From Actinokineospora inagensis DSM 44258 (GTDB lineage Bacteria > Actinomycetota > Actinomycetes > Mycobacteriales > Pseudonocardiaceae), in contig NZ_AXWW01000025.1 in NCBI RefSeq assembly GCF_000482865.1, forward strand, positions 1 through 64,000: a stretch of DNA of 64,000 bases, given 5' to 3'. Positions 19,565-54,029 of the stretch are shown here, one piece after another. Numbering within the stretch: the stretch's first letter is position 1; every line of letters begins with the position of its first letter. The translations under genes were made by a program, and so were the position numbers. The notes below the pieces were generated by a model. It had not been told where the DNA came from. It saw only the letters and a list, made by a program, of their open reading frames with translations, and ran no database searches.

Positions 19565-19714
19565 GCCCGCTGGGGTGGACTTGTTTTGTGTGGGGGGACG
19601 GTGACCGCGAAGCTGGCTGGCGGGGAAGGCCACGCTTTCCAGTGGCCCCGCCTTTTAGCCTTACCGTGCGGTTGCCGTAGGGGCCCCACACAAAACAAGT
19701 TCACCCCAGCGGGC
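19565..19714 (+). repeat. 150-bp palindromic element, locus 1
   Basis: Terminal arms 19565-19595 and 19684-19714 are reverse complements except for one G:T-compatible position. A second stem (ACGGTGACCGC with GCGGTTGCCGT) lies inside. The centre holds a GGCGG...CCGCC stem around GGCCAC-GCTTTCCA-GTGGCC followed by TTTTAG. The central 38 nt are identical to the copies at 40.1 and 53.8 kb, and the arms differ from them by paired changes. A 15-nt hairpin GTCGCCGAAGGCGAC (19746-19760) follows. No convincing protein is encoded. It lies downstream of pepD. Confidence 0.85.
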
Positions 19715-19760
19715 GCAGCCGCGTCATCTGGCGCCCGAGGCCGGCGTCGCCGAAGGCGAC

Positions 19761-20582
19761 CAGGCCGAACCCCGAGGCGCAGCCGAGGCCCAGAGACCCC
19801 TCACACCAAGATCAACCGAGAACAAAGCCCCCGAATGCACAGCCTAAACAGACCCACCGACAAAATCGGCTACCGCGCCCAAGCATGATCAACCCGCTCC
19901 GAGCCCCCGAATGCACACCCTAGCCGCGACCACCGACAAGATCACCAACAATGCCGGCGACAAGATCGGCCACCGGAACGGGTCGCGGAGTTCGGCCCGA
20001 GATCGGGTCGGCGGCAAGCCCGACACCCCCGCCCTCGCGACCGAGAGCCGCGTCCCGGTGGTTCATCACCAGTTCGTCAAACGGTTCGGTGTGAATTGTC
20101 GAAGGCGGACCTCGGAAAAGCGGCACCCGGTCCGCTCGGTGTCCCGACATCTCCATTCCCGGATACCGGGGAGGATTTCCGGTAATGCGCTCGCCGGATC
20201 ACGGTACGACGACTCGGCGGACGGCCGGTGCCGGTGCACGGGACTGGTAGCGCTCCCAGTTCCGGTCGGGGCCCGAGCTGACTGTCCACTCAGGTCAACC
20301 TGGCAAATCGTTGAAGGGACGTCATATTCGCTCTCCGTGGCCGTTTTCGTCACCGGTTGTAGTGGACGGTGTGGCGGGATGGGCTACAGTTGGCGATACT
20401 CCGTTCGGCCCCCGTCGAGTGTCTGGTCCGGACTTCGCAACCCAGTAACGGCATTGCGAACTGCACTTTGCACGGTGGTAGCGGCACAATTGACTCCAGA
20501 ACAGCGGCAGGATCGCGAATTGTGATCTACCAGCAGGCGTTCTCCCGCGACAACGCGGCCTCGCAGCCGTGACAATGGGGCT
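19761..20582. other. Long intergenic region without a recognised gene
   Basis: About 820 bp, lower in GC than its surroundings. It contains a direct repeat AGCCCCCGAATGCACA at about 19829 and 19903, and three variants of CGACAAGATC nearby. Reading frames exist on both strands, but none shows homology-like patterns, a ribosome site or actinobacterial codon bias. Confidence 0.5.
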
Positions 20583-20900
20583 ATGGCTTCGATGGCGACG
20601 TCGCTGCGCCGGGTCCGGCACACGCTGCGCGGACCGGTGCGGCTGCCGCTGGGCGTGCTCGCCGCCGCGGTGTGCGTCGGGGTGGCGGTGCTCCAGGCGA
20701 CGGTGCTGACCATCCGCACCGACGGGCTGTCCGGGACGCACGCGTTCTTCGTGCACTGGGCGCACCCGGCGGTGTGGATAGTGCTCGGCGCGGTGTGCCT
20801 GGAATACGCCCTCGGGGCGGAGCGGATCGTGTTGAACCGGACGGCGATGGTGGCTGTCGCGTTGTATCTGGCCTTCCTGTTGTCGGTCAGCTTCGCTTGA
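20583..20900 (+). CDS. Small membrane protein of unknown function
   Basis: A 105-residue protein not recognised by family. After a basic N-terminus (RRVRHTLRGPVR) there are three hydrophobic segments at about 22-40, 58-75 and 85-104, so an inner-membrane protein with a cytoplasmic N-terminus is likely. Strong G/C third-position bias supports coding. It precedes moaB by 29 bp and could be in one transcript with it. Confidence 0.65.
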   Translation: MASMATSLRRVRHTLRGPVRLPLGVLAAAVCVGVAVLQATVLTIRTDGLSGTHAFFVHWAHPAVWIVLGAVCLEYALGAERIVLNRTAMVAVALYLAFLLSVSFA

Positions 20901-20929
20901 TCGGGCCGTGCGCGCTCAGGTGGTGAACA

Positions 20930-21490
20930 GTGACTGACAGCACCGCCCTCCGGCGGCTCTCGGTGGTTCCGACGACTACGGTGAGCCCCATGGAACGCAG
21001 CGCGCAGCGGCTTGGCCGGGCTCTGATCGTGATCGTCGACGACCGGGTCGCCCACGGCGAGCACGAGGACACCGTCGGCCCCCTGGTGACCGAGCTGCTG
21101 GAGGAGGCGGGCTTCATCGTCGACGGCGTCGTCACCGTCGAGGGCGAGACCGTGGCCATCCGCAACGCGCTCAACACCGCCGTCATCGGCGGCGCCGACT
21201 TGGTCGTCACCGTCGGCGGCACCGGCGTTTCCCCGCGCGACGTCACCCCCGACGCCACCCAGGGCGTGCTGGACCGCCCGATCCCCGGCATCGCCGAGGC
21301 CCTCCGCTCCTCCGGCCTCGCCGCGGGCGCCGTGGACGCCGGCGTCTCCCGTGGCCTGGTCGGTGTCTCCGGCAGCACCCTCGTGGTCAACCTCGCGGGC
21401 TCCCGCAGCGCCGTCCGCGACGGCATGGCGACCCTGTCCTCCCTCGTGCCCTACGTCATCGGCGAGCTGTCCGGCCTCGACACGAACTGA
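20930..21490 (+). CDS. moaB: MoaB/Mog-type molybdopterin-binding domain protein
   Basis: A 186-residue protein. Residues ~25-175 form the MoCF/MogA fold with the GTVGGTGVSPRDVTPDAT-type molybdopterin-binding loop seen as VGGTGVSPRDVTPDAT. It corresponds by position to moaB2 of mycobacteria (pepD-moaB2-mscL order). MogA-like proteins adenylylate molybdopterin, but many actinobacterial MoaB2 copies are of uncertain activity. GTG 20930 is used with AGGTGG before it; ATG 20990 would give a product closer to family length. Confidence 0.87.
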   Translation: MTDSTALRRLSVVPTTTVSPMERSAQRLGRALIVIVDDRVAHGEHEDTVGPLVTELLEEAGFIVDGVVTVEGETVAIRNALNTAVIGGADLVVTVGGTGVSPRDVTPDATQGVLDRPIPGIAEALRSSGLAAGAVDAGVSRGLVGVSGSTLVVNLAGSRSAVRDGMATLSSLVPYVIGELSGLDTN

Positions 21491-21495
21491 GGCCC

Positions 21496-21741
21496 ATGCC
21501 CACCACACCGGTCTCGCCCGACCCCCACACCCCCGAGGGCTCGGGGGCCTCGGCCGGACCTGCCCCCCAGTCGAACGCACCTGAGGCCGGTGAGCCCGCC
21601 AAGCGCCGCCGCCCCACCCTCGACGAGATCTTCGGCGACGTCCTCCCGGACACCACCGCCGACGAGCGCGACCCGACGACCCCCGCGGCCACCCCGGACG
21701 ACTGGTACCTGCGCAACCGCCCACCTCACCACGGTGGCTGA
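21496..21741 (+). CDS. Small conserved-looking hypothetical protein
   Basis: An 81-residue protein starting 5 bp after moaB, so probably co-transcribed. The first half is Pro/Ala/Gly-rich and disordered; the second half (RRRPTLDEIFGDVLPDTTAD and DDWYLRNRPPHHGG) is ordered-looking, acidic-basic patterned and reads like a conserved peptide motif. No function is proposed. Confidence 0.65.
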   Translation: MPTTPVSPDPHTPEGSGASAGPAPQSNAPEAGEPAKRRRPTLDEIFGDVLPDTTADERDPTTPAATPDDWYLRNRPPHHGG

Positions 21742-21803
21742 CCGGGCCGCCGTCCCCGGGCGCGGCGGGGCCACCGGTGCGGGTGGCCCACGCCGGACCG
21801 GAC

Positions 21804-22202
21804 TCAGCGGTTCTGCTGCTGGCGGAGCAGGTCGCGGATCTCGGTGAGCAGCTCGACGTCGGTGGGCTCGGCCGGGCCGGGCTCCTCGCCGCGCTTGCGG
21901 CGGTCCTGGATGTGCTTGACCGGCAGCACGATGACGAAGTACACGATCGCGGCGACGATCAGGAAGTTGACCGCCGAGTTGATCACCGAGCCGAAGTCCA
22001 GGAACGTCGACGGGTTGCCGCCGATGACGCGGAAGCCGAGGCCGTCGGCGGCGTGCGTGCCACCGGCCGAGTTGATCAGCGGTTTGATCAGGCCGTCGGT
22101 GAAGGACGTGACGATGGTGGTGAACGCGGCGCCGATGATCACGGCGACCGCGAGGTCGATGACGTTGCCGCGCATCAGGAAGTCCTTGAAGCCCTTCAGC
22201 AC
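21804..22202 (-). CDS. mscL: Large-conductance mechanosensitive channel MscL
   Basis: A 132-residue channel. The amphipathic N-terminal helix LKGFKDFLMRGNVIDLAVAV is followed by TM1, a periplasmic loop, TM2 (FLIVAAIVYFVIVLPV) and a cytoplasmic helix ending in LLTEIRDLLRQQ. It opens under hypo-osmotic membrane tension. The usual family start (M-LKGFKDFL) corresponds to GTG 22202, with GGAG 9 nt upstream. An upstream in-frame GTG at 22244 would add 14 unsupported residues. Orientation and place next to moaB match mycobacteria. Confidence 0.95.
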   Translation of the reverse strand: MLKGFKDFLMRGNVIDLAVAVIIGAAFTTIVTSFTDGLIKPLINSAGGTHAADGLGFRVIGGNPSTFLDFGSVINSAVNFLIVAAIVYFVIVLPVKHIQDRRKRGEEPGPAEPTDVELLTEIRDLLRQQQNR

Positions 22203-22261
22203 GTGTGCGCTCCATTCTCGGGGGTGGGACGGTGTGCTCGTCACCGTCCGGGGGCGTTGGG

Positions 22262-22834
22262 CTACCGGAGCGTAACCGCTACCTGCGCGGTCAATGCCGT
22301 CGCCGCTACCTCCGCCGCCGCGGCCCTGGGTAAGGCGAGTACGGCCAGGCCACCGTCGTCTGACGGGCGCACCGTCACCACCATCGCGTCCCGGGCGAGC
22401 ACGACGTGATCAGCGGTCACCACGTCGACATGGGCACCCGGGTAGAGCAGTTCAGTGTCGGCCACCCGCACGGGTACAGCGGCGGCATCCGACCCTGCTG
22501 TCGCTAAGAGGTTCTCCGCGCCGACAAGGCGGACCGACGTGACGGCCTCACCCTCGCCGATAGCTCCGGCGGGTATGCGCGCGACAACCTCACGCGGCTC
22601 GGACAGTGCGGACGGTGGCCGTAGATCCGGTGGTGCCCGCACCACCCGGACATCGGTCGCAGTCAACGCGACGCCGGGTGCCAGCGGTCGCACGGCCACG
22701 AGCAGCGGCACCGAGGCCTCCGCGCGCGGAGGTTGGCAGGCCACCACCACGGCGGCGAGCACGAGCACGGCGGCCAGCGCCCGGCGCACGGTCATGGCGT
22801 GCGGCAGCGAACGGGGTAGACGCGGGGTGATCAC
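22262..22834 (-). CDS. SAF domain protein (CpaB/RcpC-like)
   Basis: A 190-residue protein with an N-terminal membrane helix or signal (about 17-35, ending VVACQPP) and a SAF domain from about residue 45 (AVRPLAPGVALTATDVRVVRAP). This layout is that of CpaB/RcpC Flp-pilus assembly proteins, although no pilus genes are nearby. A cysteine after the hydrophobic stretch (VVVAC) could make it a lipoprotein. GTG 22834 has an AGGAGGA ribosome site. Confidence 0.8.
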   Translation of the reverse strand: MITPRLPRSLPHAMTVRRALAAVLVLAAVVVACQPPRAEASVPLLVAVRPLAPGVALTATDVRVVRAPPDLRPPSALSEPREVVARIPAGAIGEGEAVTSVRLVGAENLLATAGSDAAAVPVRVADTELLYPGAHVDVVTADHVVLARDAMVVTVRPSDDGGLAVLALPRAAAAEVAATALTAQVAVTLR

Positions 22835-22950
22835 GGTTCCTCCTGGTCAGATCGGGTCTGACCTCGACGTTAGGAGGATTGCGCGCCCAGCGGGGGCCCG
22901 GGATCGCGGCCGTGGACAACCCCGGGCATTGTGGATAACTCGTCGGTAAC

Positions 22951-23301
22951 CTACGACGCCTTGGCCGTGGCGGTCGACGACGAAGACGAAGACGAGGACG
23001 TCGACGCGGATGAGGAACCCGACGAAGACGAGGTCGCCGTCGCCGGAGCGGGCGAGTCCGACTTCGACCCGGACTCGGTCTTCGTGGTCGACGGCGTCGC
23101 GGCCGGGGTGCCGCTCGACGAACCGGACCGGCTGTCGTTGCGGTAGAAGCCGCTGCCCTTGAAGACAACCCCGACCGAGCCGTAGAGCTTGCGCAGGCGG
23201 CCCGAGCACTCCGGGCACTCCGACAGCGCGGAGTCGGTGAACGACTGCACCGCCTCGAAGCGGTGCTCGCATGCCGTACAGGCGTACTGGTACGTGGGCA
23301 C
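22951..23301 (-). CDS. FmdB family zinc-ribbon protein with Ser-rich tail
   Basis: A 116-residue protein. Residues 1-42 form the FmdB zinc ribbon (PTYQYACTACEHRFE, then CPEC), normally a putative regulatory fold. The rest, from about residue 65, is a low-complexity tail of Ser, Ala, Thr and Gly. GTG 23301 begins the canonical MPTYQYAC start and follows AAGGGAG. Its place beside the 5-formyl-THF cyclo-ligase gene equals that in mycobacteria. Confidence 0.88.
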   Translation of the reverse strand: MPTYQYACTACEHRFEAVQSFTDSALSECPECSGRLRKLYGSVGVVFKGSGFYRNDSRSGSSSGTPAATPSTTKTESGSKSDSPAPATATSSSSGSSSASTSSSSSSSSTATAKAS

Positions 23302-23409
23302 GGACTGGGCTCCCTTGTCGCACTTGGCACTCCGCCGGACAGAGTGCCAACCGATTCTGCGGTAACGCGTGTGCGGAGCGCAAATGTTCCGGTGCGAAGT
23401 CACACACCG

Positions 23410-24018
23410 TCAGTACAGGCGCAGCAATCCGCGACCCGGGGTGAGCACCCCCGTCATCGTCACGTCGTGCCGTTCGGCGGGCAGCCGGTCGAACACCTCC
23501 GGATCGCGCACCACGGCGACCAACGGCGTGTCCGGTGCCGCCAGCGACAGCGACCGGTCGTAGTACCCGGCGCCGCGACCCAGGCGGGTCCCGTACCGGT
23601 CGACCGCCAACGCGGGCACCAGCACCACGTCCGCGATCCGCAGCGCCGTCTCCCCCAACCGCTCCCCGATCGGTTGGTACAGCCCGAACGGACCCGGCCG
23701 CAGGTACTCCCGACCGTCGTACCACGCCCAGTCCAGCGGCCCCGGCCCGGTGACGATGGGCAGGAGTATCCGCACTCCGTGGTCGGCCACCTCGTCGAGC
23801 ATCTGCACCGACCCCGGCTCCGACCCGATCGGCACGTACGCGCACAACGTCTGTCCCCGGCCGACCACCCTGCCACTGGTGAGCAGGCCCGTGAGCTGCA
23901 TCGCCTCGGCGAACCGGACGCTCGCGGGCACCCGGCGCCGTTCGGCGAGCAGTGCTCGCCGCCACTGGTCCTTGGTCCACGCGCGCGTCGCGTCGAGATC
24001 ATTACCCGGGCCTGCCAC
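23410..24018 (-). CDS. 5-formyltetrahydrofolate cyclo-ligase
   Basis: A 202-residue enzyme converting 5-formyl-THF to 5,10-methenyl-THF with ATP, a salvage step in one-carbon metabolism. The family signature GRGAGYYDRSL lies near residue 150 and the basic N-terminal KDQWRRALLAERR region is present. The GTG start is only 18 bp from the divergent galU ATG, so the two promoters must overlap each other's coding sequence or the transcripts are leaderless. Confidence 0.92.
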   Translation of the reverse strand: MAGPGNDLDATRAWTKDQWRRALLAERRRVPASVRFAEAMQLTGLLTSGRVVGRGQTLCAYVPIGSEPGSVQMLDEVADHGVRILLPIVTGPGPLDWAWYDGREYLRPGPFGLYQPIGERLGETALRIADVVLVPALAVDRYGTRLGRGAGYYDRSLSLAAPDTPLVAVVRDPEVFDRLPAERHDVTMTGVLTPGRGLLRLY

Positions 24019-24036
24019 ACGTCGAGGTTAGGCTGC

Positions 24037-24933
24037 ATGTCCATGAGCGCGTCGACCGCATTCACCGCCGCCATCGTGCCCGCGGCGGGACTGGGCACCA
24101 GGTTCCTGCCCACCACCAAGGCCGTGCCCAAGGAACTGCTGCCGGTGGTGGACACCCCCGGCATCGAGTACGTCGCGAAGGAGGCCGCCGAGGCGGGTGC
24201 CACCAGGCTGATCATCGTCACCTCGCCGGGAAAGGACGCTGTGGCGCAGTACTTCCAGCCCCGCCCGGAGCTGGAGAAGACCCTCGAGGACCGTGGTAAG
24301 ACGGAGCTGCTGGAGAAGGTCCGGCGTGCCCCCAACCTGCTCTCGGTGGAGACAGCCATTCAGGAACAGGCGCTGGGTCTCGGTCACGCTGTCGGCTGCG
24401 CCGAGCCGAACCTGCGGCCGGAGGACGAGGCCGTCGCGGTGCTGCTGCCCGACGACCTCGTGCTGCCCACCGGTGTGCTCGCCCGGATGGCCGCCGTCCG
24501 CGCGGAGAAGGGCGGTTCCGTCCTGTGCGCGTTCGACATCCCGCGCGCGGAGATCTCCGCCTACGGCGTCTTCGACGTCGAGGAGACCGATGACGACGAC
24601 GTCAAGAAGGTCAACGGCATGGTGGAGAAGCCCCCGGCGGATGAGGCCCCGTCGACCTTCGCCGCCGCGGGCCGCTACCTACTCGACCGGGCGATCTTCG
24701 ACGCGCTCAAGCGGATCACCCCGGGCGCCGGTGGTGAACTCCAGTTGACCGACGCGATCGCGCTGCTGATCGCCGAGGGCCACCCCGTGCACGTGGTCGT
24801 GCACCGAGGTGGGCGCCATGACCTGGGGAATCCGGGTGGGTTCCTGCGTGCCGCCGTGGACTTCGCGCTCGAGCACCCGGAGTATGGGCCGAGCCTGCGC
24901 GGGTGGCTGCGGGACCGGGTCGGTTCCGAGTAG
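24037..24933 (+). CDS. galU: UTP-glucose-1-phosphate uridylyltransferase
   Basis: A 298-residue GalU making UDP-glucose for cell-envelope polysaccharides, trehalose and galactose use. The nucleotidyl-transferase motif AAGLGTRFLPTTKAVPKE is at residues ~15-32 and the sugar-binding VEKP motif reads MVEKPP. ATG 24037 is chosen (ATG 24043 also possible). It is followed 33 bp later by glp, forming galU-glp-rimJ-glpR as in mycobacteria and corynebacteria. It supplies a substrate for the GalT reaction. Confidence 0.95.
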   Translation: MSMSASTAFTAAIVPAAGLGTRFLPTTKAVPKELLPVVDTPGIEYVAKEAAEAGATRLIIVTSPGKDAVAQYFQPRPELEKTLEDRGKTELLEKVRRAPNLLSVETAIQEQALGLGHAVGCAEPNLRPEDEAVAVLLPDDLVLPTGVLARMAAVRAEKGGSVLCAFDIPRAEISAYGVFDVEETDDDDVKKVNGMVEKPPADEAPSTFAAAGRYLLDRAIFDALKRITPGAGGELQLTDAIALLIAEGHPVHVVVHRGGRHDLGNPGGFLRAAVDFALEHPEYGPSLRGWLRDRVGSE

Positions 24934-24966
24934 CCGAGAACAGCGGACGAAACCAAGGTAAACCGG

Positions 24967-26181
24967 ATGAGGTCAGTCGACGAGCAACTCGCCAGGGCAC
25001 TGGCTGCCGCGGTCCGGCCCGCCCCCGTGCGGGTCGCCATCTCCGAGTCGCAGGGGCTGCTCTGCGCCGAAGAGATCGTGGCGGAGCGCGCCCTGCCCGG
25101 GTTCGATCAGGCTGCCGTGGACGGTTACGCCGTGCGCAGCGTCGACACCCAGGGCGCCGAGCCGGTAGTGCTACCGGTCGTCGGTGAGATCGCGTCCGGG
25201 TCTCGCCAACCACGCAGGCTTCAACCAGGGCAAGCGGTGCGCGTGGCGACAGGAGCACCGCTGCCCACCCTGGCCGACGCGGTAGTCCCGGTCGGTTATA
25301 CCGATGGCCACCACGCCCGCGTCACCGTCAACCAACCCGTGCCGTCGGCCGCCTACGTCCGGCGGACCGGTGAGGACGTGCAGACCGGTGACGTCGCCGT
25401 GCGCCGAAACTCGGTGATCGGCTCAGCGCAGGTGGGTCTACTCGCCGCGGTGGGCCGGTCGAAGGTTCTTGTGTACCCGCGGCCGCGGGTCTCGGTTATC
25501 TCCCTCGGCGATGAACTCGTGGACGTCGACCGAGCCCCCGGCCAGGGACAGGTCTACGACGTGAACTCGTACGCGCTATCCGCGGCCGCCCGCGATACCG
25601 GAGCCGATGTCATCCGCGTCGGCATCGTCTCCACCGACACGCGACGGTTGCGCGAGACGATCGAGAGTAGGCTGCTGCTGTCCGAGATCGTGCTCATCTC
25701 CGGTGGTGTCGCGGGCGAGATCGGCAACGAGGTCCGTTCCGCCCTACGCGACCTCGGTGACTTGGACCTCACCCGGGTCGCCATGCACCCCGGCTCCGTG
25801 CAGGGCTACGGCAGGCTCGGCCCGGACGCCACTCCCACGTTCCTGCTGCCCGGCAACCCGATGAGCGCGCTGGTCGTGTTCGAGGTGTTGGTGCGCCCGC
25901 TCATCCGGACCGTCCAGGGCAAACAACCCCATCGCCGGGTGGTTTCCGCCAGCCTCCTGTCACCGATCACCTCCACCAAAGCTCGACGGGGCTACCTGCG
26001 CGGGCAACTGCTACGCGACGAGGACACCAACGAGTACCTGGTGCAGCCGCTCGGCATGTCCGGCTCCCATCTGCTCGCCTCGCTCGCCGAGGCCAACTGC
26101 CTCATCGTCGTCGACGAGGACACCACCGAGGTCTCGGTCGGCGAGCAAGTCCAGGTCATGTTCCTCGCCCAGCGTGGCTAG
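24967..26181 (+). CDS. glp: MoeA/gephyrin-like protein Glp
   Basis: A 404-residue MoeA-fold protein with the four MoeA domains (GFDQAAVDGYAVRS near residue 38, the MoCF domain with ISLGDELV, and a C-terminal beta barrel). By sequence it could be a molybdopterin molybdenumtransferase. The position directly before rimJ and glpR, however, matches the corynebacterial Glp that binds FtsZ and the membrane receptor GlpR in division. The MoCF loop here reads SGGVAGEIGNEV, not the usual SGGVSxGxxD, so loss of molybdenum insertion activity is plausible. Third-position A/T is higher than in its neighbours. Confidence 0.88.
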   Translation: MRSVDEQLARALAAAVRPAPVRVAISESQGLLCAEEIVAERALPGFDQAAVDGYAVRSVDTQGAEPVVLPVVGEIASGSRQPRRLQPGQAVRVATGAPLPTLADAVVPVGYTDGHHARVTVNQPVPSAAYVRRTGEDVQTGDVAVRRNSVIGSAQVGLLAAVGRSKVLVYPRPRVSVISLGDELVDVDRAPGQGQVYDVNSYALSAAARDTGADVIRVGIVSTDTRRLRETIESRLLLSEIVLISGGVAGEIGNEVRSALRDLGDLDLTRVAMHPGSVQGYGRLGPDATPTFLLPGNPMSALVVFEVLVRPLIRTVQGKQPHRRVVSASLLSPITSTKARRGYLRGQLLRDEDTNEYLVQPLGMSGSHLLASLAEANCLIVVDEDTTEVSVGEQVQVMFLAQRG

Positions 26182-26827
26182 CCCCCCGTACGCGGGCAGG
26201 CACCCCGGCTGGCCTGCCCGCCTCGGCCCGCTCCAGGTCGCCGCGGGTGTGGTGGAACTGCGCGGTCCCCGGCTCACCGACGGCCGCGCCTGGAGCCGCA
26301 TCCGGATGCGCGACCGCGACTACCTGGAGAACTGGGAACCCACCGCGCCCGGCGACTGGGCCGAGCGCAACGCGCCGACCGCCTGGTTCAGCCAGTGGTC
26401 CACCCTGCGCGCCCTGGCCCGGCGCGGCATGTCGCTGCCGTTCGTGATCACCGTGGACGGCCGGTTCGCCGGTCAGGTCACCGTCGGCAACGTGGTGCGC
26501 GGGTCGCTCTGCTCGGCCTGGGTCGGCTACTGGGTGGCCACCGACGCGGTCGGCGGGGGAGTGGCCACCGCGGCGTCCGCCCTGGTCGTCGACCACTGCT
26601 TCACCGTCGGCGGCCTGCACCGGGTCGAGGCCACCGTCCGGCCGGAGAACGCGCCCAGCCTGCGCGTGCTGGCCAAGCTGGGGTTCCGCGAGGAGGGCCT
26701 GTTCCGCCGCTACCTCGACGTCGCGGGTGGCTGGCGCGACCACCTGTGCCTCGCTCTGACCACAGAGGACGCCCCGGGTGGCCTGGTGTCCCGGCTGGTC
26801 GCGGCCGGACTGGCCACCCGGCCGTAG
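26174..26827 (+). CDS. GNAT N-acetyltransferase (RimJ/RimL type)
   Basis: A 217-residue GNAT protein overlapping glp by 8 nt. The acetyl-CoA-binding region is around WVATDAVGGGVATAAS, followed by the RimJ-type VEATVRPENAPSLRVLAKLGFREEG motif. RimJ/RimL enzymes acetylate protein N-termini such as those of ribosomal proteins; the target here is unknown. The conserved place between glp and glpR suggests a link to that division module, but it may only be transcriptional. Confidence 0.9.
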   Translation: MASPPYAGRHPGWPARLGPLQVAAGVVELRGPRLTDGRAWSRIRMRDRDYLENWEPTAPGDWAERNAPTAWFSQWSTLRALARRGMSLPFVITVDGRFAGQVTVGNVVRGSLCSAWVGYWVATDAVGGGVATAASALVVDHCFTVGGLHRVEATVRPENAPSLRVLAKLGFREEGLFRRYLDVAGGWRDHLCLALTTEDAPGGLVSRLVAAGLATRP

Positions 26828-27011
26828 TCGGATTCATGTTTTCCCCGGGTGAAGTTTGATCACCCCCGTTACGGGGAACGGTCCACAAGCGAACTACCCG
26901 ATCGGGTAACCCCGTGCGGCGGAGGTCGGCGCGCCTCCGCCGCACGTGTGACTGTTGTGACTAACGTGGCGATCACCAGGACGCCGCTGAGCAGGGGGAG
27001 GTGACGGGACC

Positions 27012-27671
27012 ATGCCGAGTTCGCTGATCGTGGTCGGGTTGGTCGTGGCCTGGCTCGTCGTCCTCGTACCGATGGTCGTGCGCAAGCGCCAAGAGGTGGC
27101 CCGGACCACCGACACCGCGCTCGCCGCCCGCGTCGTCCGCAGCGGTGCCCAGCCCCGGGAGGAAGCCGCCGTGGAGCCCGACGCGTCTTTCGACCCCGAG
27201 CCCGAGTACGACGACCCCGAGTACGACGAGGTCGACACCCCCCGCTACCGCCCCGGCCGCGGCGGCTACGACCCCGACGCCGCCGCCCGCTCCGCCCGCG
27301 CCAAGTACGCCTTCCGGCAGCGCGTGGTCGTCCTCATGCTGCTCGCCGCCATCGGCACCGGCGTCGCCGCAGGCCTCGTCATCCCGCTGCTCTGGTGGGC
27401 CTGTGCCCTAGTCGGCGCCACCCTCGTCGGCTACCTGACCTACCTGCGCCGCCAAGTCCGCATCGAACAGGACATCCGCGAACGCCGCGCCGCCCGCGCC
27501 ACCGCCGTCCGCCGCTCCCACGCCCGCCCCACCGAGGCCCCGGTCGCCGACCACGTCCCCCCGACCCGCCTCCACCCCACCGCCACCATCGTCTCCCTCG
27601 ACGACGAAGACCCCTGGTTCGACGACCTCGACGAACCCACCGCCACCTACCGCCGCGCCGCAGGCGAATAA
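27012..27671 (+). CDS. glpR: Glp receptor-like membrane protein GlpR
   Basis: A 219-residue protein with an N-terminal membrane helix (SSLIVVGLVVAWLVVLVPMV), an acidic disordered stretch (residues ~45-90), two further membrane helices at about 100-140, and a basic then acidic cytoplasmic tail. This layout and its position in the galU-glp-rimJ operon fit GlpR, the membrane partner of Glp in Corynebacterium. GTGACGGGACC precedes ATG 27012, and AGGGGGAGG gives the ribosome site. Assignment rests on synteny and architecture. Confidence 0.75.
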   Translation: MPSSLIVVGLVVAWLVVLVPMVVRKRQEVARTTDTALAARVVRSGAQPREEAAVEPDASFDPEPEYDDPEYDEVDTPRYRPGRGGYDPDAAARSARAKYAFRQRVVVLMLLAAIGTGVAAGLVIPLLWWACALVGATLVGYLTYLRRQVRIEQDIRERRAARATAVRRSHARPTEAPVADHVPPTRLHPTATIVSLDDEDPWFDDLDEPTATYRRAAGE

Positions 27672-27726
27672 GACCCCCTGCGCGGCACCCGCCGCCAGGA
27701 CTGCTAAGCTCTGCGAGCACGAACAA

Positions 27727-27799
27727 GGGGCTGTAGCGCAGTTGGTAGCGCGTCTCGTTCGCATCGAGAAGGTCCGGGGTTCGATTCCCCGCAGCTCCA
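27727..27799 (+). tRNA. tRNA-Ala (anticodon CGC)
   Basis: A 73-nt cloverleaf: acceptor GGGGCTG paired with CAGCTCC, anticodon stem TCTCG/CGAGA around TTCGCAT, and T arm CGGGGTTCGATTCCCCG. The anticodon CGC decodes GCG. CCA is not encoded; a hairpin terminator begins 9 bp downstream. Confidence 0.94.
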
Positions 27800-27808
27800 C
27801 GCATAGGT

Positions 27809-27835
27809 GGCCCGTGCCCGCAGAGGGCGCGGGCC
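27809..27835 (+). terminator. Hairpin terminator after tRNA-Ala
   Basis: GGCCCGTGCCC (27809-27819) pairs with GGGCGCGGGCC (27825-27835) over 11 positions with one G:T, loop GCAGA, followed by GTTTGCGTTT. Distance and T-rich tail fit termination of the tRNA transcript. Confidence 0.75.
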
Positions 27836-28229
27836 GTTTGCGTTTCGCGATCATATTGGGGGTGCGACCCCAAACCCCGCTCGGGAGGCTCGCGCCCCCG
27901 AACCCCCGGCTGTGGTTGCGGTGAGTGGGTCGGGGTTGAACAAAACTGTGGTTGCTCCGCGAGTGTGGGTGGGTGCTCGAGGGGAGCGGACGCCATTCTT
28001 GGTTCGGGTTCGGGGGTCCAAGCCCCCATGGTTCTAGCTGGGGCAGGCGCTTGGACCCTGGTGAGGTGCGGGGCATGCGCTGGGCTGTGGCGTCGGATGT
28101 CACGAACGATGTGAGTCCGGGTGCTTGTGCACACGAGTGGTGACGGGTCCGAAAGGACCTCGTGGTTTGCGCCATCTTCTGCCGAGCGACTGCGGGAGCG
28201 GCGAACCTTGATCGCCAACGGCACCTCGC
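27836..28229. other. Intergenic stretch without a recognised gene
   Basis: About 390 bp before the SerRS-like gene. It might be expected to hold the missing SerRS N-terminus, but no frame gives the usual first helix (D-x-K-x-x-R pattern). It contains two G-rich patches (CTCGGGAGGCTCG region and GGTTCGGGTTCGGGGG) and no clear promoter. Confidence 0.4.
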
Positions 28230-29987: not shown

Positions 29988-29991
29988 CTGG

Positions 29992-30840: not shown

Positions 30841-30884
30841 GGCTCATCCAGCCAACGAAGCACACGGGAACTCTAGTCAGGGCG

Positions 30885-39865: not shown

Positions 39866-39923
39866 CACTCTATTTCGGAACAAACCAAATCCGCCCGCGA
39901 TAAAGCGCCACGACCAACCGGCC

Positions 39924-40049
39924 CCGCGCGCCTCGAAACCCACCCCGCATCGACGAAGCGCCACCCCCGCACCGCGCGCCTCGGAACCCCCGGCCCCATC
40001 GACGAAGCCCCACACTTGCCCCGCGCGCCTCGAAACCCGCCGATACCAA
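39924..40049 (+). repeat. ~50-bp tandem units (3) leading into palindromic element, locus 2
   Basis: CCGCGCGCCTC recurs at 39924, 39972 and 40021 (periods 48 and 49), each followed by a GGAACCC/GAAACCC segment and, in the first two, a CATCGACGAAGC segment. The third unit runs straight into the palindromic element through CGCCGATACCAACT. Confidence 0.75.
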
Positions 40050-40051: not shown

Positions 40052-40200
40052 GCCCGCTGGGGTGGAGTTGTTTTGTTTGGGGGGAGCGGTGGCCTAAGCC
40101 GGCTGGCGGGTAAGGCCACGCTTTCCAGTGGCCCCGCCTTTTAGCCTTACCCAGGCCACCGCACAGGGGCCCCAAACAAAACAACTTCACCCCAGCGGGC
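40052..40200 (+). repeat. 149-bp palindromic element, locus 2
   Basis: Outer arms 40052-40082 and 40170-40200 pair over 31 positions with one G:T-compatible mismatch. An inner stem GCGGTGGCCT/AGGCCACCGC is perfect, and the central GGCGG..GGCCAC..GTGGCC..CCGCC hairpin plus TTTTAG matches the other loci. The follow-on hairpin GTCGCCGAAGGCGAC is at 40231-40245. It lies between trxA and the convergent kinase gene. Frames across it on the minus strand are judged non-coding. Confidence 0.87.
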
Positions 40201-42603: not shown

Positions 42604-42609
42604 GCCCGG

Positions 42610-43566: not shown

Positions 43567-43653
43567 GCCGAGAAGAGTAGCTGGCAGGATTTTATCGCAC
43601 AAGGTCAGAACTGCCACTGTTGGCAGTAAATCCGCCAACGCAAACTTAGTGCC

Positions 43654-45377: not shown

Positions 45378-45565
45378 GGGGGGAGATCGTAGGCGGACCG
45401 GTGTGGTATCCGCGTCGGAAGTTCCTCGATCGGGCCGGGTCGCAGTCCGGCCGCCGCCGTGGGATCAACTGATCGTGTAGTTGTTTGCCCAGTTCAGGCA
45501 CGGTACAAGAGGATCATCAGCCGCGCTCGACGGGACCGCGGGTCAACACACGGGCGGGGTGCACG

Positions 45566-46429
45566 GTGCCTCCTGGACGGCCGACCATCAGGTCGCGGCA
45601 GGTCGCTGGCGAGCTGCGCAGGCTGCGCAAGCAGGCCGGGCTGACCACGGGCGAGGTCGGCGCCCGGCTCGGCCTGTCCCAGGCCAAGGTCAGCCGGGTG
45701 GAGACCGGCAGCAGCGGGCTGCGGCTGCGCGACGTGCAGGCCATGCTGGGCCTCTACCGGGTGCCCGAGCCGCGCCAAGAGGAGATCCTGGACCTGGTCC
45801 GCCGGGCCGCTGAGCCGGGCTGGGTGCAGGTGCACGGCCGCGGCCTGCCCGAGCAGTGGCAGACCCTGATCGACTGGGAGTCCAAGGCGCTGGCCCTGCG
45901 CGCCCACCACGGCGGCCTGGTGCCGGGCCTGCTGCAGACCGCCGACTACGCGCGCGCCGCGATCCGGGACACCGCCGCCGTCCGGCCCAGCGACGTCGAA
46001 CTGGACGGCAAGGTCGCCGCCCGGCTGGCCCGGCAGGGCATCCTCAGCCGGGAGCGACCGCCGTCACTGCACGCCCTGATCGGCGAGGCCGCGCTGCGCA
46101 TCCCGGTCGGCGGCCAGGCCGTGGCGTCCGCGCAACTGCGGCACCTCGCGGAGCTGAACCGCAAACCGCACGTGGTGGTCCGTGTCGTGCCGATGGCGGC
46201 GGGAGCCCACCCCGGGCTGGAGGGGTCGTTCCTGTTGATGGACTTCGCCGAGGACCGGTCCCTGGTTTACACCGAGCACCGCTCCCGCACCCTGTTCCTC
46301 GACGACGACAGCGCCGTCCAAACCCACCGCCACGCCTGGGACCGCATCGCGGCGGCCGCGCTGCCCGCACCGGAATCCGCCGACCTGATCACCGAGTTGG
46401 CCGTCTCCGCTTCCCGAGATCCGGCGTGA
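45566..46429 (+). CDS. XRE-family regulator with DUF5753 domain
   Basis: A 287-residue regulator. The N-terminal helix-turn-helix reads LRRLRKQAGLTTGEVGARLGLSQAKVSRVETG; the DUF5753 domain follows (GLVPGLLQTADYARA, then LEGSFLLMDFAEDRSLVYTEHRS). This family is abundant in filamentous actinobacteria, often paired with a small DUF397 protein, which is absent here. GTG 45566 is preferred to the upstream ATG because the family begins near PPGRPTIRSRQ. Confidence 0.9.
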   Translation: MPPGRPTIRSRQVAGELRRLRKQAGLTTGEVGARLGLSQAKVSRVETGSSGLRLRDVQAMLGLYRVPEPRQEEILDLVRRAAEPGWVQVHGRGLPEQWQTLIDWESKALALRAHHGGLVPGLLQTADYARAAIRDTAAVRPSDVELDGKVAARLARQGILSRERPPSLHALIGEAALRIPVGGQAVASAQLRHLAELNRKPHVVVRVVPMAAGAHPGLEGSFLLMDFAEDRSLVYTEHRSRTLFLDDDSAVQTHRHAWDRIAAAALPAPESADLITELAVSASRDPA

Positions 46430-46451
46430 CCTGGGCGAGTACCCTTCGACC

Positions 46452-46862
46452 GTGACCACCTACCGCCCGCGCTGGAGCATCGTGCTGGGGCTCGGTGCGG
46501 TTCTGGCCCTGGTAACCACGGCGGTCTTGCTGGTCCTGCCGCGCCCGGATCCCATCGCCATCGGGTTCACCGGGGTGATGTGGCTGGTGATCGGTGCGGT
46601 CAACGCTCGCCGCCAGTGGTTGGCGGTCACCGAGGACGGCTGCGAGTACGTGGCCAACGGATTCCGCCTGACCTACCACTGGGTGGACTTCCAGGAGTAC
46701 CGACGGGGCCGACTGCGGTTCCGCGCGGGCGAGGTCGACCACAACGGCGACTTCTTCTCCCGCTGGGCAGCGCGGCGTCTGCGGTACCGGGTGCCGGTCT
46801 GGATGTTCCCGGTCGACTGGCGCGCGCTGCCGGTCAGGTCTGTTGTCGAAGGAGTTGTGTGA
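46452..46862 (+). CDS. PH domain-like membrane protein
   Basis: A 136-residue protein with two membrane helices (about 8-30 and 36-52) followed by a bacterial PH-like beta domain (WLAVTEDGCEYVANGFRLTYHWVDFQEY). Function unknown. It overlaps rsmI by 4 nt, so the two are translated together. Confidence 0.78.
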   Translation: MTTYRPRWSIVLGLGAVLALVTTAVLLVLPRPDPIAIGFTGVMWLVIGAVNARRQWLAVTEDGCEYVANGFRLTYHWVDFQEYRRGRLRFRAGEVDHNGDFFSRWAARRLRYRVPVWMFPVDWRALPVRSVVEGVV

Positions 46863-47686
46863 GCGGTCGGTTGGTGTTGGCGGCGACCCCGCTCGGTGAG
46901 GTTGGGGACGCCTCGGCGCGGTTGGTGGAGGCGTTGGGGTCGGCGGATGTGATCGCGGCTGAGGACACACGGCGAGCGCGGTCGCTCGCTGTGGCGCTCG
47001 GTGTCACTCCGGTCGGTCGGGTCGTGAGCTTCTACGACGCTGTTGAGACCGCTCGGGCGCCCGCGCTCGTTGACGCTATCCGCACCGGTCAAACCGTTCT
47101 GCTCATTACCGACGCCGGCATGCCCAGCGTGTCCGACCCCGGTTACCGCCTGGTCGCCGCGTGCGTCGAGGCCGACCTGCCCGTGACGTGCCTACCGGGA
47201 CCGTCAGCGGTGACGACGGCGTTGGCGTTGTCCGGGCTGCCGTGTGACCGGTTCTGCTTCGAGGGTTTCGCGCCGCGGAAGCAGGGGGAGCGGCGCAAGT
47301 GGCTGCAGGTCTTGGCCGACGAGCCGAGGACGGCGGTGCTGTTCGAGGCGCCGCACCGGATCGACGCGTTGCTCGCGGACGCGGTCGACGTGCTCGGCGG
47401 CGAGCGGCGGGCCGCGGTGTGCCGGGAGCTGACCAAGTCGTACGAGGAGGTCAAGCGCGGCACCCTGGCCGAACTGGCCGAATGGGCCAAGGACGGGGTG
47501 CGCGGGGAGATCACCGTCGTGCTGGCGGGCGCCGAGCCGCGCACACTGGACCTGGACACCCTGGTCGGTCGGGTCAGGGCGCTGGCGGCGGAGGGCACCC
47601 GGCTCAAGGACGCCGCCGCCGAGGTCGCGGCCGCGACGGGGATGAGCAAGAAGGCCCTGTACGACGCGGCCGTCAGTCGGGCATGA
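46859..47686 (+). CDS. rsmI: 16S rRNA (cytidine-1402-2'-O)-methyltransferase
   Basis: A 275-residue SAM-dependent methyltransferase of the tetrapyrrole-methylase fold that modifies C1402 in the 16S decoding centre. Family motifs: VLAATPLGEVGDASARLVEAL, AEDTRRARSL, LITDAGMPSVSDPGYRLV and VCRELTKSYEEVKRGTLAEL. The GTG start overlaps the previous stop. The C-terminal KDAAAEVAAATGMSKKALYDAA helix-turn-helix-like tail is typical of actinobacterial RsmI. Confidence 0.95.
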   Translation: MSGRLVLAATPLGEVGDASARLVEALGSADVIAAEDTRRARSLAVALGVTPVGRVVSFYDAVETARAPALVDAIRTGQTVLLITDAGMPSVSDPGYRLVAACVEADLPVTCLPGPSAVTTALALSGLPCDRFCFEGFAPRKQGERRKWLQVLADEPRTAVLFEAPHRIDALLADAVDVLGGERRAAVCRELTKSYEEVKRGTLAELAEWAKDGVRGEITVVLAGAEPRTLDLDTLVGRVRALAAEGTRLKDAAAEVAAATGMSKKALYDAAVSRA

Positions 47687-47699
47687 GAGTGAGTCGAGC

Positions 47700-48680
47700 A
47701 TGGCAGCGGAGTTGGTCGAGCGGATAACCGGGCACGGCTCGGTCAACGACACGGCGGCGCGGTTCGGCGTGCACGCCACGGACCTCGGTGTCATGTGGGA
47801 CGGGGGCGGCGGCCGCACGTTCGTGGCTTTCGGCGACACCTATGGCCACGGTTGGTGCGGTGACGGCGCCGGTCCGTCCGAGGGCAGCGACTGGCGGTGC
47901 AACTTCCTCGCCGTATCCACCGACGAGGACTTGGACAACGGCCTCAAGTTCGACTACGTCATCGCCGGACCCAACGGCCACGCCCGTCAAATCCTCGACC
48001 GCGACTCTTACGGCACCGAGGAAACCGTCATCCCGTGCTCGGGGGTCGCGATAGGGGATACGCACTACCTGCACTACATGTCAGTGCACGCGTGGGGCAG
48101 CCGAGGCCGGTGGGCCACCAATTACGGCGGTATCGCTGTCTCCACCGATGACGGCGAAACCTGGGACAAGCCCGTAGGCGCCAGATGGCCCAACAGAGCC
48201 GAACGTGACCACCCGTTCCAAATGGGCGCCTTCGCCCTCGCCGACGACTACCTCTACCTCTTAGGCACACAAAACGGTCGATGGAACGGCGCCAGCCTCG
48301 CCCGAGTGCCCAAGAACGACGTACTAAACCTCCGCTCTTACGACTACTGGAACGGCGCCGGTTGGTACCCACGCGAGGAGTTGCGCGCGACCCCGGTGCT
48401 GCTCGGCAACGTCGCCGAGCTGTCCGTCATCTACTCTGTCCACTTCGGACAATGGCTGGCCGTACACCTCGACGAGGCCCTTGCCGCCCTGGTCCTGCGC
48501 CGCGCGGACGAGCTGACCGGACCGTGGAGCGAACCCGAGGTGCTGGCCACCGGCCGTGACTACCCCGGCCTCTACGGCGGCTTCCTCCACCCGGCGTCCG
48601 CACACGGCCCGGTCATCCACTTCACGATGTCGCAGTGGTCCCCCTACAACGTCTACCTGATGCGGGCAGACCTGTCTTAA
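47700..48680 (+). CDS. DUF4185 protein (GH183-like five-bladed propeller)
   Basis: A 326-residue protein: THATDLGVMWDG-type opening, FVAFGDTYGHGWCG, and a repeated TNYGGIAVSTDDGETWDK propeller blade are DUF4185 hallmarks. Some DUF4185 members were recently shown to be endo-D-arabinanases (GH183) acting on mycobacterial-type arabinan. No signal peptide is visible from ATG 47700, so export is unclear. It contains a TTA codon at 48261. Codon usage is less GC-biased than in rsmI, which precedes it by 13 bp. Confidence 0.82.
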   Translation: MAAELVERITGHGSVNDTAARFGVHATDLGVMWDGGGGRTFVAFGDTYGHGWCGDGAGPSEGSDWRCNFLAVSTDEDLDNGLKFDYVIAGPNGHARQILDRDSYGTEETVIPCSGVAIGDTHYLHYMSVHAWGSRGRWATNYGGIAVSTDDGETWDKPVGARWPNRAERDHPFQMGAFALADDYLYLLGTQNGRWNGASLARVPKNDVLNLRSYDYWNGAGWYPREELRATPVLLGNVAELSVIYSVHFGQWLAVHLDEALAALVLRRADELTGPWSEPEVLATGRDYPGLYGGFLHPASAHGPVIHFTMSQWSPYNVYLMRADLS

Positions 48681-48705
48681 GCCTCCGGACGACGGCCATG
48701 ATGGC

Positions 48706-48719
48706 TGCAAGCGTTTGCG
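48706..48719. promoter_or_regulatory. LacI-type operator-like palindrome
   Basis: TGCAAGCGTTTGCG is close to the LacI-family consensus TGCAANCGNTTGCA with a central CG. It lies 26 bp after the DUF4185 stop and 103 bp before metG. No LacI regulator gene is in the window. Confidence 0.35.
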
Positions 48720-48821
48720 CGGGTGGTCGCGGCACTGTTCACCAGCAACTGTCGGCCACCGCTCTGCGCCGCGTGTAACCCGATGGCCCAGCTCGGGCCG
48801 GGCTCCGTACGCTAGTGGCCC

Positions 48822-50611
48822 ATGAGCGCCAACGTGTTGACCGCGGTGGCCTGGCCTTACGCCAACGGCCCCCGCCATATCGGTCATGTGTCCGGATTCG
48901 GTGTCCCCTCGGACGTCTTCTCCCGCTACATGCGCATGTCCGGCCACCGAGTGCTCATGGTCAGCGGCACCGACGAGCACGGCACGCCGATCCTCGTCCA
49001 GGCCGACAAGGAAGGACTGACCGCCCGCCAGCTCGTCGACAAGTACAACCGGGTGATCGCCGAGGACCTGCACGGGCTCGGCCTGTCCTACGACCTGTTC
49101 ACCCGCACCACGACCGGCAACCACTACCAGGTCGTGCAGGACCTGTTCCTCGCGCTCTGGCGCAACGGCTACGTGCAGTCGCAGACCCAGTTGGGCGCCA
49201 TCAGCCCGTCCACCGGCCGCACCCTGCCCGACCGCTACATCGAGGGCACCTGCCCGATCTGCGGCTACGACGGCGCCCGCGGCGACCAGTGCGACAACTG
49301 CGGCAACCAGCTCGACCCGGTCGACCTGAAGAACCCGCGGTCGCGGATCAACGGCGAGACGCCGAAGTTCGTCGAGACCGAGCACCTGTTCGTCGACCTG
49401 CCGCAGTTCACCGAGACGCTGGGCCGGTGGCTGTCCACCCGCTCGGAGTGGCGGCCGAACGTGCTCAAGTTCAGCCAGAACCTGATCGACGACATGCGGC
49501 CGCGGCCGATCACCCGCGACCTGGACTGGGGCATCCCGATCCCGCTGGACGGCTGGCGCGACCTGCCGATGAAGCGGTTCTACGTGTGGTTCGACGCGGT
49601 CATCGGCTACCTGTCGGCCAGCGTCGAGTGGGCCCGCCGCTCCGGCGACCCGGACGCGTGGCAGCAGTTCTGGACCGACCCGTCCGCCCAGGGCTACTAC
49701 TTCATGGGCAAGGACAACATCGTCTTCCACTCGCTGATCTGGCCCGCGCTGCTGCTCGGCCAGAACGGGGCGGGCGACAAGGGCGGCACCCCCGGCCGGT
49801 TCGGCGCGCTGAACCTGCCCACCGAGGTCGTCTCCAGCGAGTTCCTCACCATGAGCGGCTCGAAGTTCTCCACCTCGCGCGGCACCGTCATCTACGTGGG
49901 TGACTTCCTGCGCGAGTTCGGCCCGGACGCGCTGCGGTACTTCATCTCGGTCGCGGGCCCGGAGAACCAGGACACGGACTTCACCTGGGACGAGTTCGTC
50001 CGGCGGACCAACTTCGAGTTGGCGAACGAGTGGGGCAACCTGGTCAACCGGTCCATCTCGATGGCGCACAAGAACGTCGGCGCCGTGCCGAAGCCGACCA
50101 GCCCGACCGCGGCGGACGCGGAGCTCAAGGCGCTGGCCAAGGCCGCTTTCGACACGGTGGGCGACAACCTGCGCCGGTCCCGGTTCAAGGCGGCGGCCAC
50201 CGAGGCGATGCGGGTGGTCGGCGCGGCGAACAAGTACCTGTCCGACGAGGAGCCCTGGAAGCGCAAGGACGACCCGGACCGCCGCGACACCATCCTGCAC
50301 ACCGCGCTGCAGGTCGTGTCCGACGCGAACACGCTGCTCACCCCGTTCCTGCCGCACTCGGCGCAGAAGGTGCACGAGGCGCTCGGCGGTACCGGCGTGT
50401 GGGCGGCCCAGCCGGAGGTCCGCGAGGTCGACGACCTGGACGACCCGTCGATCCGGTACCCGGTGCTGACCGGTGACTACGCGGGCGAGCAGGCCGCGTG
50501 GAAGTCGGTCGACATCGAGGTCGGCAGGCCGCTGGACAAGCCGGTGCCGCTGTTCGCCAAGCTCGACCCCGAGCTCGGCGAGACCGGTCCCGAGTGGGCG
50601 CCGATCCAGAA

Positions 50612-50615
<4 letters not shown>
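48822..50615 (+). CDS. metG: Methionine-tRNA ligase
   Basis: A 597-residue class I synthetase charging tRNA-Met. HIGH-type motif GPRHIGH is at residues ~16-22. The zinc knuckle has two CxxC pairs (CPICGYDG and CDNCG), placing it with the MetG type carrying the zinc insert. The KMSKS-type motif reads [10 protein letters not shown]. The anticodon-binding domain fills the C-terminal third; the extra dimerisation EMAP domain is absent. Its stop overlaps tatD. Confidence 0.96.
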
Positions 50616-53324
<2,709 letters not shown>

Positions 53325-53348
53325 CCCCCCACTTTTCTTCTTTCCACT

Positions 53349-53379
53349 GGCGGTCCCCATCCCTTGGGGACCGCCTTTT
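53349..53379 (+). terminator. 10-bp hairpin with T tract after rpfB
   Basis: GGCGGTCCCC (53349-53358) and GGGGACCGCC (53366-53375) pair perfectly around ATCCCTT and are followed by TTTT, a textbook intrinsic terminator. ksgA therefore likely has its own promoter, unlike the joined rpfB-ksgA of mycobacteria. Confidence 0.88.
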
Positions 53380-53546
53380 CTGTTGAACCCCATCGCGCAG
53401 CGACTTTTCAGATACCAACAGTCAAGTTGACAAAAACCTAGAAATATCCCACCTCACCCAGCAGTAGCTCAGGCAACACCAGCCCGCCAACCCCGCGCCG
53501 CCCCCCAACAAACCACCGCACCACAACCCACCACGACCAACCAACA

Positions 53547-53724
53547 CCGCGCGCCTCGAAACACCCCACCCCACATCGACAAAGCCCGCCAGCCCGCCCC
53601 GCGCGCCTCAAATCCCGTCCTACATCGACAAAGCCCGCCAGCCTGCCCGCGCGCCTCAAATCCCGTCCTACATCGACGACGGCCGCCAACCCACCCCGCG
53701 CGCCTCGAAACCCGCCGATACCAA
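53547..53724 (+). repeat. ~50-bp tandem units (4) leading into palindromic element, locus 3
   Basis: CCGCGCGCCTC recurs at 53547, 53599, 53647 and 53696 (periods 52, 48, 49). The middle units share ...AAATCCCGTCCTACATCGAC followed by an AAAGCCCGCCAGCC segment. The last unit leads through CGCCGATACCAACT into the palindromic element, exactly as at locus 2. The 53400-53546 stretch before it shows nothing recognisable. Confidence 0.78.
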
Positions 53725-53726
53725 CT

Positions 53727-53875
53727 GCCCGCTGGGGTGGAGTTGTTTTGTTTGGGGGAGGCGGTGGCCTAAGCCGGCTGGCGGGTAAGGCCACGCTTTC
53801 CAGTGGCCCCGCCTTTTAGCCTTACCCAGGCCACCGCACAGGGGCCCCAAACAAAACAACTTCACCCCAGCGGGC
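53727..53875 (+). repeat. 149-bp palindromic element, locus 3
   Basis: Outer arms 53727-53757 and 53845-53875, inner stem GCGGTGGCCT/AGGCCACCGC and the central hairpin are the same as at locus 2; the two copies differ only at a few unpaired bases. The trailing hairpin GTCGCCGAAGGCGAC is at 53909-53923. It lies between rpfB and ksgA on the + strand. Confidence 0.87.
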
Positions 53876-54029
53876 ACAGCCCGCGAAAATCTGGCGCGAT
53901 CCAGCGGCGTCGCCGAAGGCGACAAGCAGTCACCCGGCACCCCAAAAATGCACCCCCCGAATCCAGCCTACGAGAGATCCCCCCACCAACACCCCCGCAC
54001 AACCCGCCCCTGTGCACACCCACCCCCCT

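Follow-up and report, generated by a model that had tools for sequence, protein, structure and literature searches.

What is the palindrome of about 150 nucleotides (nt) that recurs in the genome of Actinokineospora inagensis DSM 44258, and what keeps its two arms complementary? The stretch analysed here, hereafter the window, comprises 64,000 nt (contig NZ_AXWW01000025.1, positions 1 to 64,000) and carries three copies of this element, located exactly where a first-pass annotation made from the letters alone had placed them (Table 1). That annotation had suggested an uncatalogued family, either a miniature inverted-repeat transposable element (MITE) or a structured RNA, with selection acting on its structure. 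This suggestion is supported, since further copies covary and no Rfam family covers the element. We consider it moderately probable that the palindrome is an undescribed, non-autonomous and structure-selected repeat of Pseudonocardiaceae, akin to MITEs or to repetitive extragenic palindromes (REPs), whose plus strand must fold singly, as RNA or single-stranded DNA, to be copied. As in MITEs, the element is small, multicopy and mostly intergenic, and the arms of its outer stem (P1) reach its ends, thereby forming terminal inverted repeats.

Folding confirmed that the 31-nt outer arms of the window copies pair end to end. The two double stem changes noticed earlier are present (A2 columns 16/137 and 26/127), as is the single G.T-compatible site (columns 14/139). 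By contrast with the earlier description, the invariant centre of the three copies measures 40 nt instead of 38, and TTTTAG is not a tail that ends it: this motif lies inside the fold and is followed by CCTTACC. The minimum free energies of the plus strands of copies 1, 2 and 3 are -113.2, -110.5 and -111.3 kcal/mol, against shuffled means near -65 (z of -11.3, -10.4 and -10.7; none of 200 shuffles as low for any copy). No Rfam family reaches its gathering score on the palindrome in the window, and permissive scans of the copy 2 stretch and of 11 loci of other genomes returned, over the element, only matches below this score, mostly microRNA hairpins. A SAM riboswitch (RF00162) at 55209-55298 of the window scores above the gathering threshold and is unrelated to the palindrome.

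The element is far from limited to the three copies first reported: single genomes of these soil bacteria contain up to a hundred copies or more. A covariance model (R1), built from 33 copies of five genomes with only the outer stem entered as paired, gives 120 rows in the own genome, with 114 strong places at E <= 3.9e-22 and one weak place matched on both strands; a BLAST search found at least 40 places. Fourteen contigs of this assembly start no more than 500 nt from a listed place (e.g. C43:117, C42:90, C60:24 and C70:57), a weak one in one case. Since the assembly therefore probably breaks at copies, the true number is probably higher. The search across Pseudonocardiaceae that had been proposed as a check found R1 matches in 22 of 150 genomes, belonging to seven of 46 genera (E-values being rough), and 15 of the 16 Actinokineospora genomes are positive, G012 being the member of the genus that has no match. 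This search scored the best 20 candidates, those of the genus, of A. globicatena and of A. terrae the best 150, and row numbers outside the own genome may count both strands of the palindrome. A looser pattern of the 3' arm lists at least 77 matches, all in Actinokineospora (A. diospyrosa, A. terrae, A. globicatena and A. sp. NBRC 105648), but, as arms differ in other genera, is blind to most of the copies there. The exact core pattern has no match in the genome contigs searched, from which own or near records were possibly excluded. Copies are also found close together: genome G006 (loci L218-L277) harbors tandem arrays of copies, mostly 237-278 bp from start to start, as well as inverted pairs, which also occur in G001 (L140, L209) and G009 (L137, L211). 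No title on the palindrome was found among those listed in searches of the open-licence PMC literature.

The consensus of the palindrome differs from genome to genome and the fold is retained. Sixteen of the positive genomes belong to other genera; one locus of each was folded and, on inspection, showed the same plan. A script completed by inspection parsed this plan in 69 folded loci (three places occurring twice; three loci without P2, three with two copies, three mis-split and five on the opposite strand). It consists of P1, a short linker, a second stem (P2), an ARCY motif, apical helices, the P2 partner strand, a bulge and the P1 partner strand. P1 counts 19-35 bp, with a T-rich middle and an inner end that reads GGGG or GGAG; P2 counts 8-19 bp and its sequence is unrelated between genera. 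The ARCY motif, often UAAGCU, stands close to where the 5' strand of P2 ends in 40 of 59 rows of plausible size, and 27 of the 59 carry a U run (TTT) in the 3' half of the core. Thus, the loop motif is common across copies, a pyrimidine bulge being frequent only. The asymmetric bulge before the 3' arm is retained across genera as AGGGG or a variant of it, namely AGAGG where P1 reads GGAG/CTCC and AAGGG in one genus (g8). Furthermore, the 5' apical strand can often pair with either of two 3' strands that overlap each other. This alternative pairing exceeds dinucleotide shuffles (p < 0.05) in 15 of 27 cores, those of one genus being related, and does not in the other 12; it is not significant for the core of the window (p 0.27). 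It is a feature of the palindrome and not a proof of a switch.

The expectation that the arms would covary in further copies is borne out. Among 28 copies of the own genome (25 distinct), 99.7% of the 1024 cells of P1 and P2 are standard pairs, a proportion that falls to 40-51% when the partner is slid by 1-3 columns, and double changes affect 94 cells versus 31.2 in shuffles. The wobbles are strand-polar. P1 of 125 copies from seven Actinokineospora genomes displays 196 G.U and only 6 A.C in 3874 cells, each of the latter confined to a single copy; counted once per genome and site, the tally is 24 versus 6 (p 0.0014). In 110 copies of G006, we found 204 G.U and 5 A.C in 3410 cells. These sets omit copies whose arms could not be aligned (4 of 129 and 2 of 112, respectively), and most or all of the ten G006 copies of the seven-genome set may recur in the G006 set. 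G.U is even the majority state at some sites (e.g. 63 of 110 in G006), which A.C never is. A G.T pair read on one DNA strand appears as A.C when the opposite strand is read, and a process that works on double-stranded DNA would thus be expected to leave the two in equal numbers. Since G.U far exceeds A.C, the plus strand probably folds singly, as RNA or single-stranded DNA. This polarity speaks against cruciform extrusion or arm-to-arm correction, both put forward in the first-pass annotation, as sole cause of the double changes.

Copies are concentrated between converging genes. In five genomes, 106 of the 180 intergenic regions with a copy are convergent, 69 codirectional and 5 divergent, versus 59, 341 and 117 of the 517 regions without a copy (p 1e-34). 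These positions come from pattern searches for the own genome, NBRC 105648 and A. diospyrosa, so that the class without may contain missed copies of these three, and from the covariance model for A. globicatena and A. terrae. G006 shows the same distribution (36, 26 and 5 regions with a copy versus 32, 144 and 58 without; p 1e-10), and none of its 112 copies overlaps a called gene by more than 60 nt. The search pattern, a regular expression, skips copies with altered arm ends and hence undercounts them in the surveys of polarity, of G006 placement and of flanks. In another genus (G094, L184:357-732), a copy is located 128 nt downstream of a 5S rRNA gene, the same subtype being found in L185 and L190.

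Furthermore, the set of occupied sites differs between sister species. At least 17 of 50 A. globicatena copies have a copy at the orthologous site among the 70 A. terrae loci examined (a lower bound, as a few A. terrae places fall outside the comparison), with the orientation kept at 14 sites and reversed at 3; one further match is shifted. The other 33 have no counterpart among these loci. Ten of them were traced: eight A. terrae regions could be compared and contain no copy, either by pattern or among the model matches listed, one site gave only a weak match and one has its flanks on two contigs. Both flanks are in order in three of the eight regions and lie 3.5 kb apart in one; two regions are rearranged and two were recognised by a single flank. 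At the empty site L295/L397, the aligned flanks are 44 nt apart versus 585 nt, and at L299/L404 164 versus 719 nt; at L292/L403, the distances are 92 and 711 nt, the left piece being just 200 nt at 78%. From the copy number, the species-specific consensus and this turnover, all read from genome sequences, we infer that the palindrome is mobile.

Many copies are accompanied by flanking modules (Table 1). Among the copies listed for the own genome, A. terrae, A. globicatena, A. diospyrosa and G006, many have a tandem array 5' of the palindrome and hairpins 3' of it, and a motif like CCCCCGAATACACAGCCTAC stands on the 3' side of part of the copies with modules. The first part of the 3' module of copy 1, up to ACCGACAA(G/A)ATC, is common to other copies of the own genome. 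In A. sp. NBRC 105648, the palindrome is solitary, without such modules, and its ends lie at or near CT|GCTCGAT...ATCGAGC|(A/C)CACC.

Table 1. Palindrome copies and associated modules in the window, with positions counted from its first letter
Feature	Position	Strand	Description
Copy 1	19565..19714	+	150 nt; P1 19565-19595 with 19684-19714; P2 19598-19609 with 19667-19678
3' flank module of copy 1	19736..19943	+	GTCGCCGAAGGCGAC hairpin; two CCCCCGAATGCACA(G/C)CCTA motifs at 19828 and 19904; repeat family D8
Tandem array, period 49	39917..40038	+	5' side of copy 2; Tandem Repeats Finder; repeat families D2/D4
Copy 2	40052..40200	+	149 nt; P1 40052-40082 with 40170-40200; P2 40086-40095 with 40153-40162; AGGGG-ending bulge 40163-40169
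Tandem array, period 48-49	53573..53714	+	5' side of copy 3
Copy 3	53727..53875	+	149 nt; P1 53727-53757 with 53845-53875; P2 53761-53770 with 53828-53837
3' flank module of copy 3	53905..53970	+	Hairpin; CCCCCGAATCCAGCCTA at 53954; repeat family D7

In some species, DnaA-box sequences accompany these modules. In S. coelicolor and M. tuberculosis, TTGTCCACA is the DnaA box of high affinity (PMC4285127), and we apply this Streptomyces/Mycobacterium box by sequence. The exact box is present in 36 of 46 A. globicatena intergenic regions with a copy versus 1 of 24 without, in 30 of 70 versus 0 of 52 in A. terrae and in 18 of 67 versus 2 of 132 in G006. In these three genomes, it lies mostly 110-275 nt past the 3' arm, inside a larger composite, and the boxes of A. 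diospyrosa likewise lie mostly 3' of the copy, within a narrow range of distances. An exact TGTGGACAA follows 35 of 49 A. globicatena copies within 400 nt past the 3' arm, in 21 cases as a pair 18-19 nt apart and never in reverse orientation. Counting both strands, TTGTCCACA occurs 58 times within 400 nt of the copies of this species, versus a mean of 1.5 for the 251 observed 9-mers of the same composition, the runner-up, which overlaps TTGTCCACA, reaching 18. The dnaA-dnaN interval of A. globicatena contains one exact box, which is consistent with its identity as a DnaA box but thin. Only two boxes stand beside copies of the own genome, none beside those of NBRC 105648 and two in 97 kb of loci of other genera. 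Because of this scarcity, the boxes are not part of the core of the family. The window also harbors a second repeat family, GCCGGTAGACTGGCACCGGGGTCGCCCCCCGGGAGGGTGGGGGC, at 62721-62843, 63470-63592, 56814-56949, 58038-58173 and 9689-9751. One or two TTGTCCACA boxes precede four of these five places (18 nt apart at 62721 and 63470), and its GTAGACTG..CGGGG resembles, on the reverse strand, GTAGGCTG..CGGGGG of the 3' module of the palindrome.

If the palindrome is such a structure-selected mobile repeat, its plus strand would fold as a single strand of RNA or DNA and would be recognised by an enzyme, with the motif in the loop that follows P2 and the AGGGG-like bulge as candidate features for this recognition. 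The same enzyme would insert new copies. Those landing in promoters or genes would be lost, so that the remaining ones would lie between converging genes. The flanking modules that often accompany the palindrome are the 5' tandem array, the 3' hairpin and, in some species, the DnaA-box module.

Several observations weigh against this proposal. No mover was found: the own genome has no match to Y1_Tnp or RVT_1, other transposase and recombinase families not having been searched, and no autonomous copy with the same ends was seen, in work that included neither an exhaustive search nor a comparison with an insertion sequence (IS) database. Around the 19 solitary NBRC 105648 copies, whose ends are uncertain by a few bases, no target-site duplication stands out (best direct repeat of 3.5 on average versus 3.2 in shuffles, p 0.14), and these copies have no TA at their ends. 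The minus strands of copies 1, 2 and 3 fold at -101.9, -112.4 and -112.9 kcal/mol, i.e. slightly better than the plus strand in copies 2 and 3 and the opposite in copy 1. Moreover, the structure tested for covariation was derived from the same 28 copies, and 12 pairs are changed on both sides, a number reached by 41 of 500 shuffles. The polarity copies were collected with a pattern that fixes some arm letters, G.U and A.C both being free at the main wobble sites, and P1 includes other mismatches (10 cells in the 125-copy set and 28 in G006, mostly at one outer site). The placement counts depend on gene calls from our own caller, which was not benchmarked. As 14 of the 17 sites shared by the sister species keep their orientation, many copies are old. 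Finally, presence or absence of a copy could also stem from loss or from exchange by recombination, transposition itself being deduced.

The palindrome could instead serve the host: transcribed as a hairpin between converging genes, it would prevent read-through, or protect or process 3' ends. The strong enrichment between convergent genes, the very stable fold, the RNA-like tolerance of wobbles and the copy following a 5S rRNA gene would all agree with such a role. Intrinsic transcription terminators are indeed stable hairpins near the 3' ends of genes. Unlike them, the palindrome exists as dispersed homologous copies, shows no U tract after the 3' arm in the window copies or in the solitary NBRC 105648 copies, and has no net sense bias: in codirectional regions, its plus strand is sense in 32 and antisense in 19 cases in the five genomes and 18 and 30 in G006, i.e. 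50 versus 49 in total. This absence of a net link to the transcription of the neighbour weakens a role in cis as 3' untranslated region or terminator. In addition, a host function fits poorly with the 33 A. globicatena copies for which the A. terrae loci examined offer no counterpart and with the absence of matches in G012 and in 39 of the 46 genera drawn, and a mere stopper would need no loop motif conserved across genera. A host element appears rather unlikely. Even less probable is a DnaA-binding or replication-linked unit, comparable to datA in titration or to an origin, in which array, palindrome and boxes would form one cassette. The concentration of exact boxes in copy-bearing regions of A. 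globicatena, A. terrae and G006, their uniform orientation past the 3' arm in A. globicatena and the box in its dnaA-dnaN interval would suit such a unit, but the boxes are rare or absent beside copies elsewhere, and some are found 5' of the palindrome, such as 5 of 21 in A. terrae.

Two further explanations concern the way in which the arms change or the copies move. Quasi-palindrome correction during replication, without any structural selection, would alter both arms together, and the long, near-perfect P1 arms would be a suitable substrate; being strand-blind, it does not account for G.U, and not A.C, being kept as majority state, nor for an asymmetric bulge that persists across genera, and we regard it as very improbable. 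Still more improbable, in our opinion, is a classical REP moved by a REP-associated tyrosine transposase (RAYT), or a retron-like RNA moved in trans by a reverse transcriptase. The palindromes, their paired and tandem arrangements and their strand polarity resemble such systems, but PF01797 (Y1_Tnp) is found in only 2 and PF00078 (RVT_1) in only 3 of the 16 Actinokineospora genomes, and the own genome, which has 114 strong places, contains neither of them. Furthermore, none of the 19 solitary NBRC 105648 copies has GTAG within 6 nt of either end, and CGTC or GACG comes within 8 nt of an end in 3 of them, never at the end itself. Two individual candidates were also rejected as movers. The only IMG/VR match (L031:1-2117, IMGVR_UViG_2528768220_000001) starts with a copy truncated in one arm, and a frame carrying Resolvase and Recombinase domains starts some 140-165 nt past it; this contig carries no second copy, and no similar recombinase was found in the other loci examined. 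L031 may be one phage or island inserted at a copy, such copies being possible attachment sites. In G001 (L210), two frames that bear DDE transposase domains lie between two inverted copies; judged by eye, the ends of the insert are not P1 and one arm is interrupted, so that this insert may be an unrelated bystander IS in the arm of a copy. A bolder version of the mobile-repeat proposal is doubtful, though conceivable: a new class of mobile element, old enough to span the family, that spreads as a folded single strand with alternative pairing, without RAYT or reverse transcriptase, and to which DnaA boxes were joined in one lineage to make a replication-linked cassette.

To our knowledge, many palindromic repeats of bacteria either rely on a RAYT or lack a known mover. 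Among those described in the literature, ERIC/IRU, Correia/NEMIS, RUP, RPE and CIR are palindromic MITEs of 100-200 bp, in high copy number, whose transcripts fold into long stem-loops (PMC2229807). The present palindrome resembles them in size, copy number and long stem-loop; it differs by its hosts, and by the fact that target-site duplication and TA termini, listed for several of them (PMC2229807), were not found at the 19 solitary NBRC 105648 copies. Its stems are rewritten between genera while the plan is kept and its wobble is strand-polar, a trait not compared in ERIC/IRU-type MITEs. CIR also carries the recognition site of a cell-cycle methyltransferase (PMC2229807), to which the DnaA-box composite bears a loose likeness. 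REPs are 20-40 bp long and are marked at one end by a GTAG or CGTC tag, and RAYT acts on folded single-stranded REP DNA (PMC3733652, PMC12306157). REPs and bacterial interspersed mosaic elements (BIMEs) are likewise palindromic, dispersed and sometimes in inverted pairs, but are shorter and tagged, and the own genome here has no Y1_Tnp match. BrickBuilt of Porphyromonas gingivalis also combines a MITE with a tandem repeat and is always intergenic, with the minisatellite inside the element (PMC4596501), whereas the array here abuts the palindrome and none stands beside the NBRC 105648 copies listed.

This palindrome hence provides hundreds of natural variants across genera in which the sequence of the stems turns over, whereas the fold plan and the strand polarity persist. 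Since the stems vary while the plan persists, the features that are recognised should be readable by comparison, and a mover could be searched for by co-occurrence. Moreover, the association with DnaA boxes in some Actinokineospora species would make it possible to test directly whether repeats of this kind can be recruited to the control of replication.

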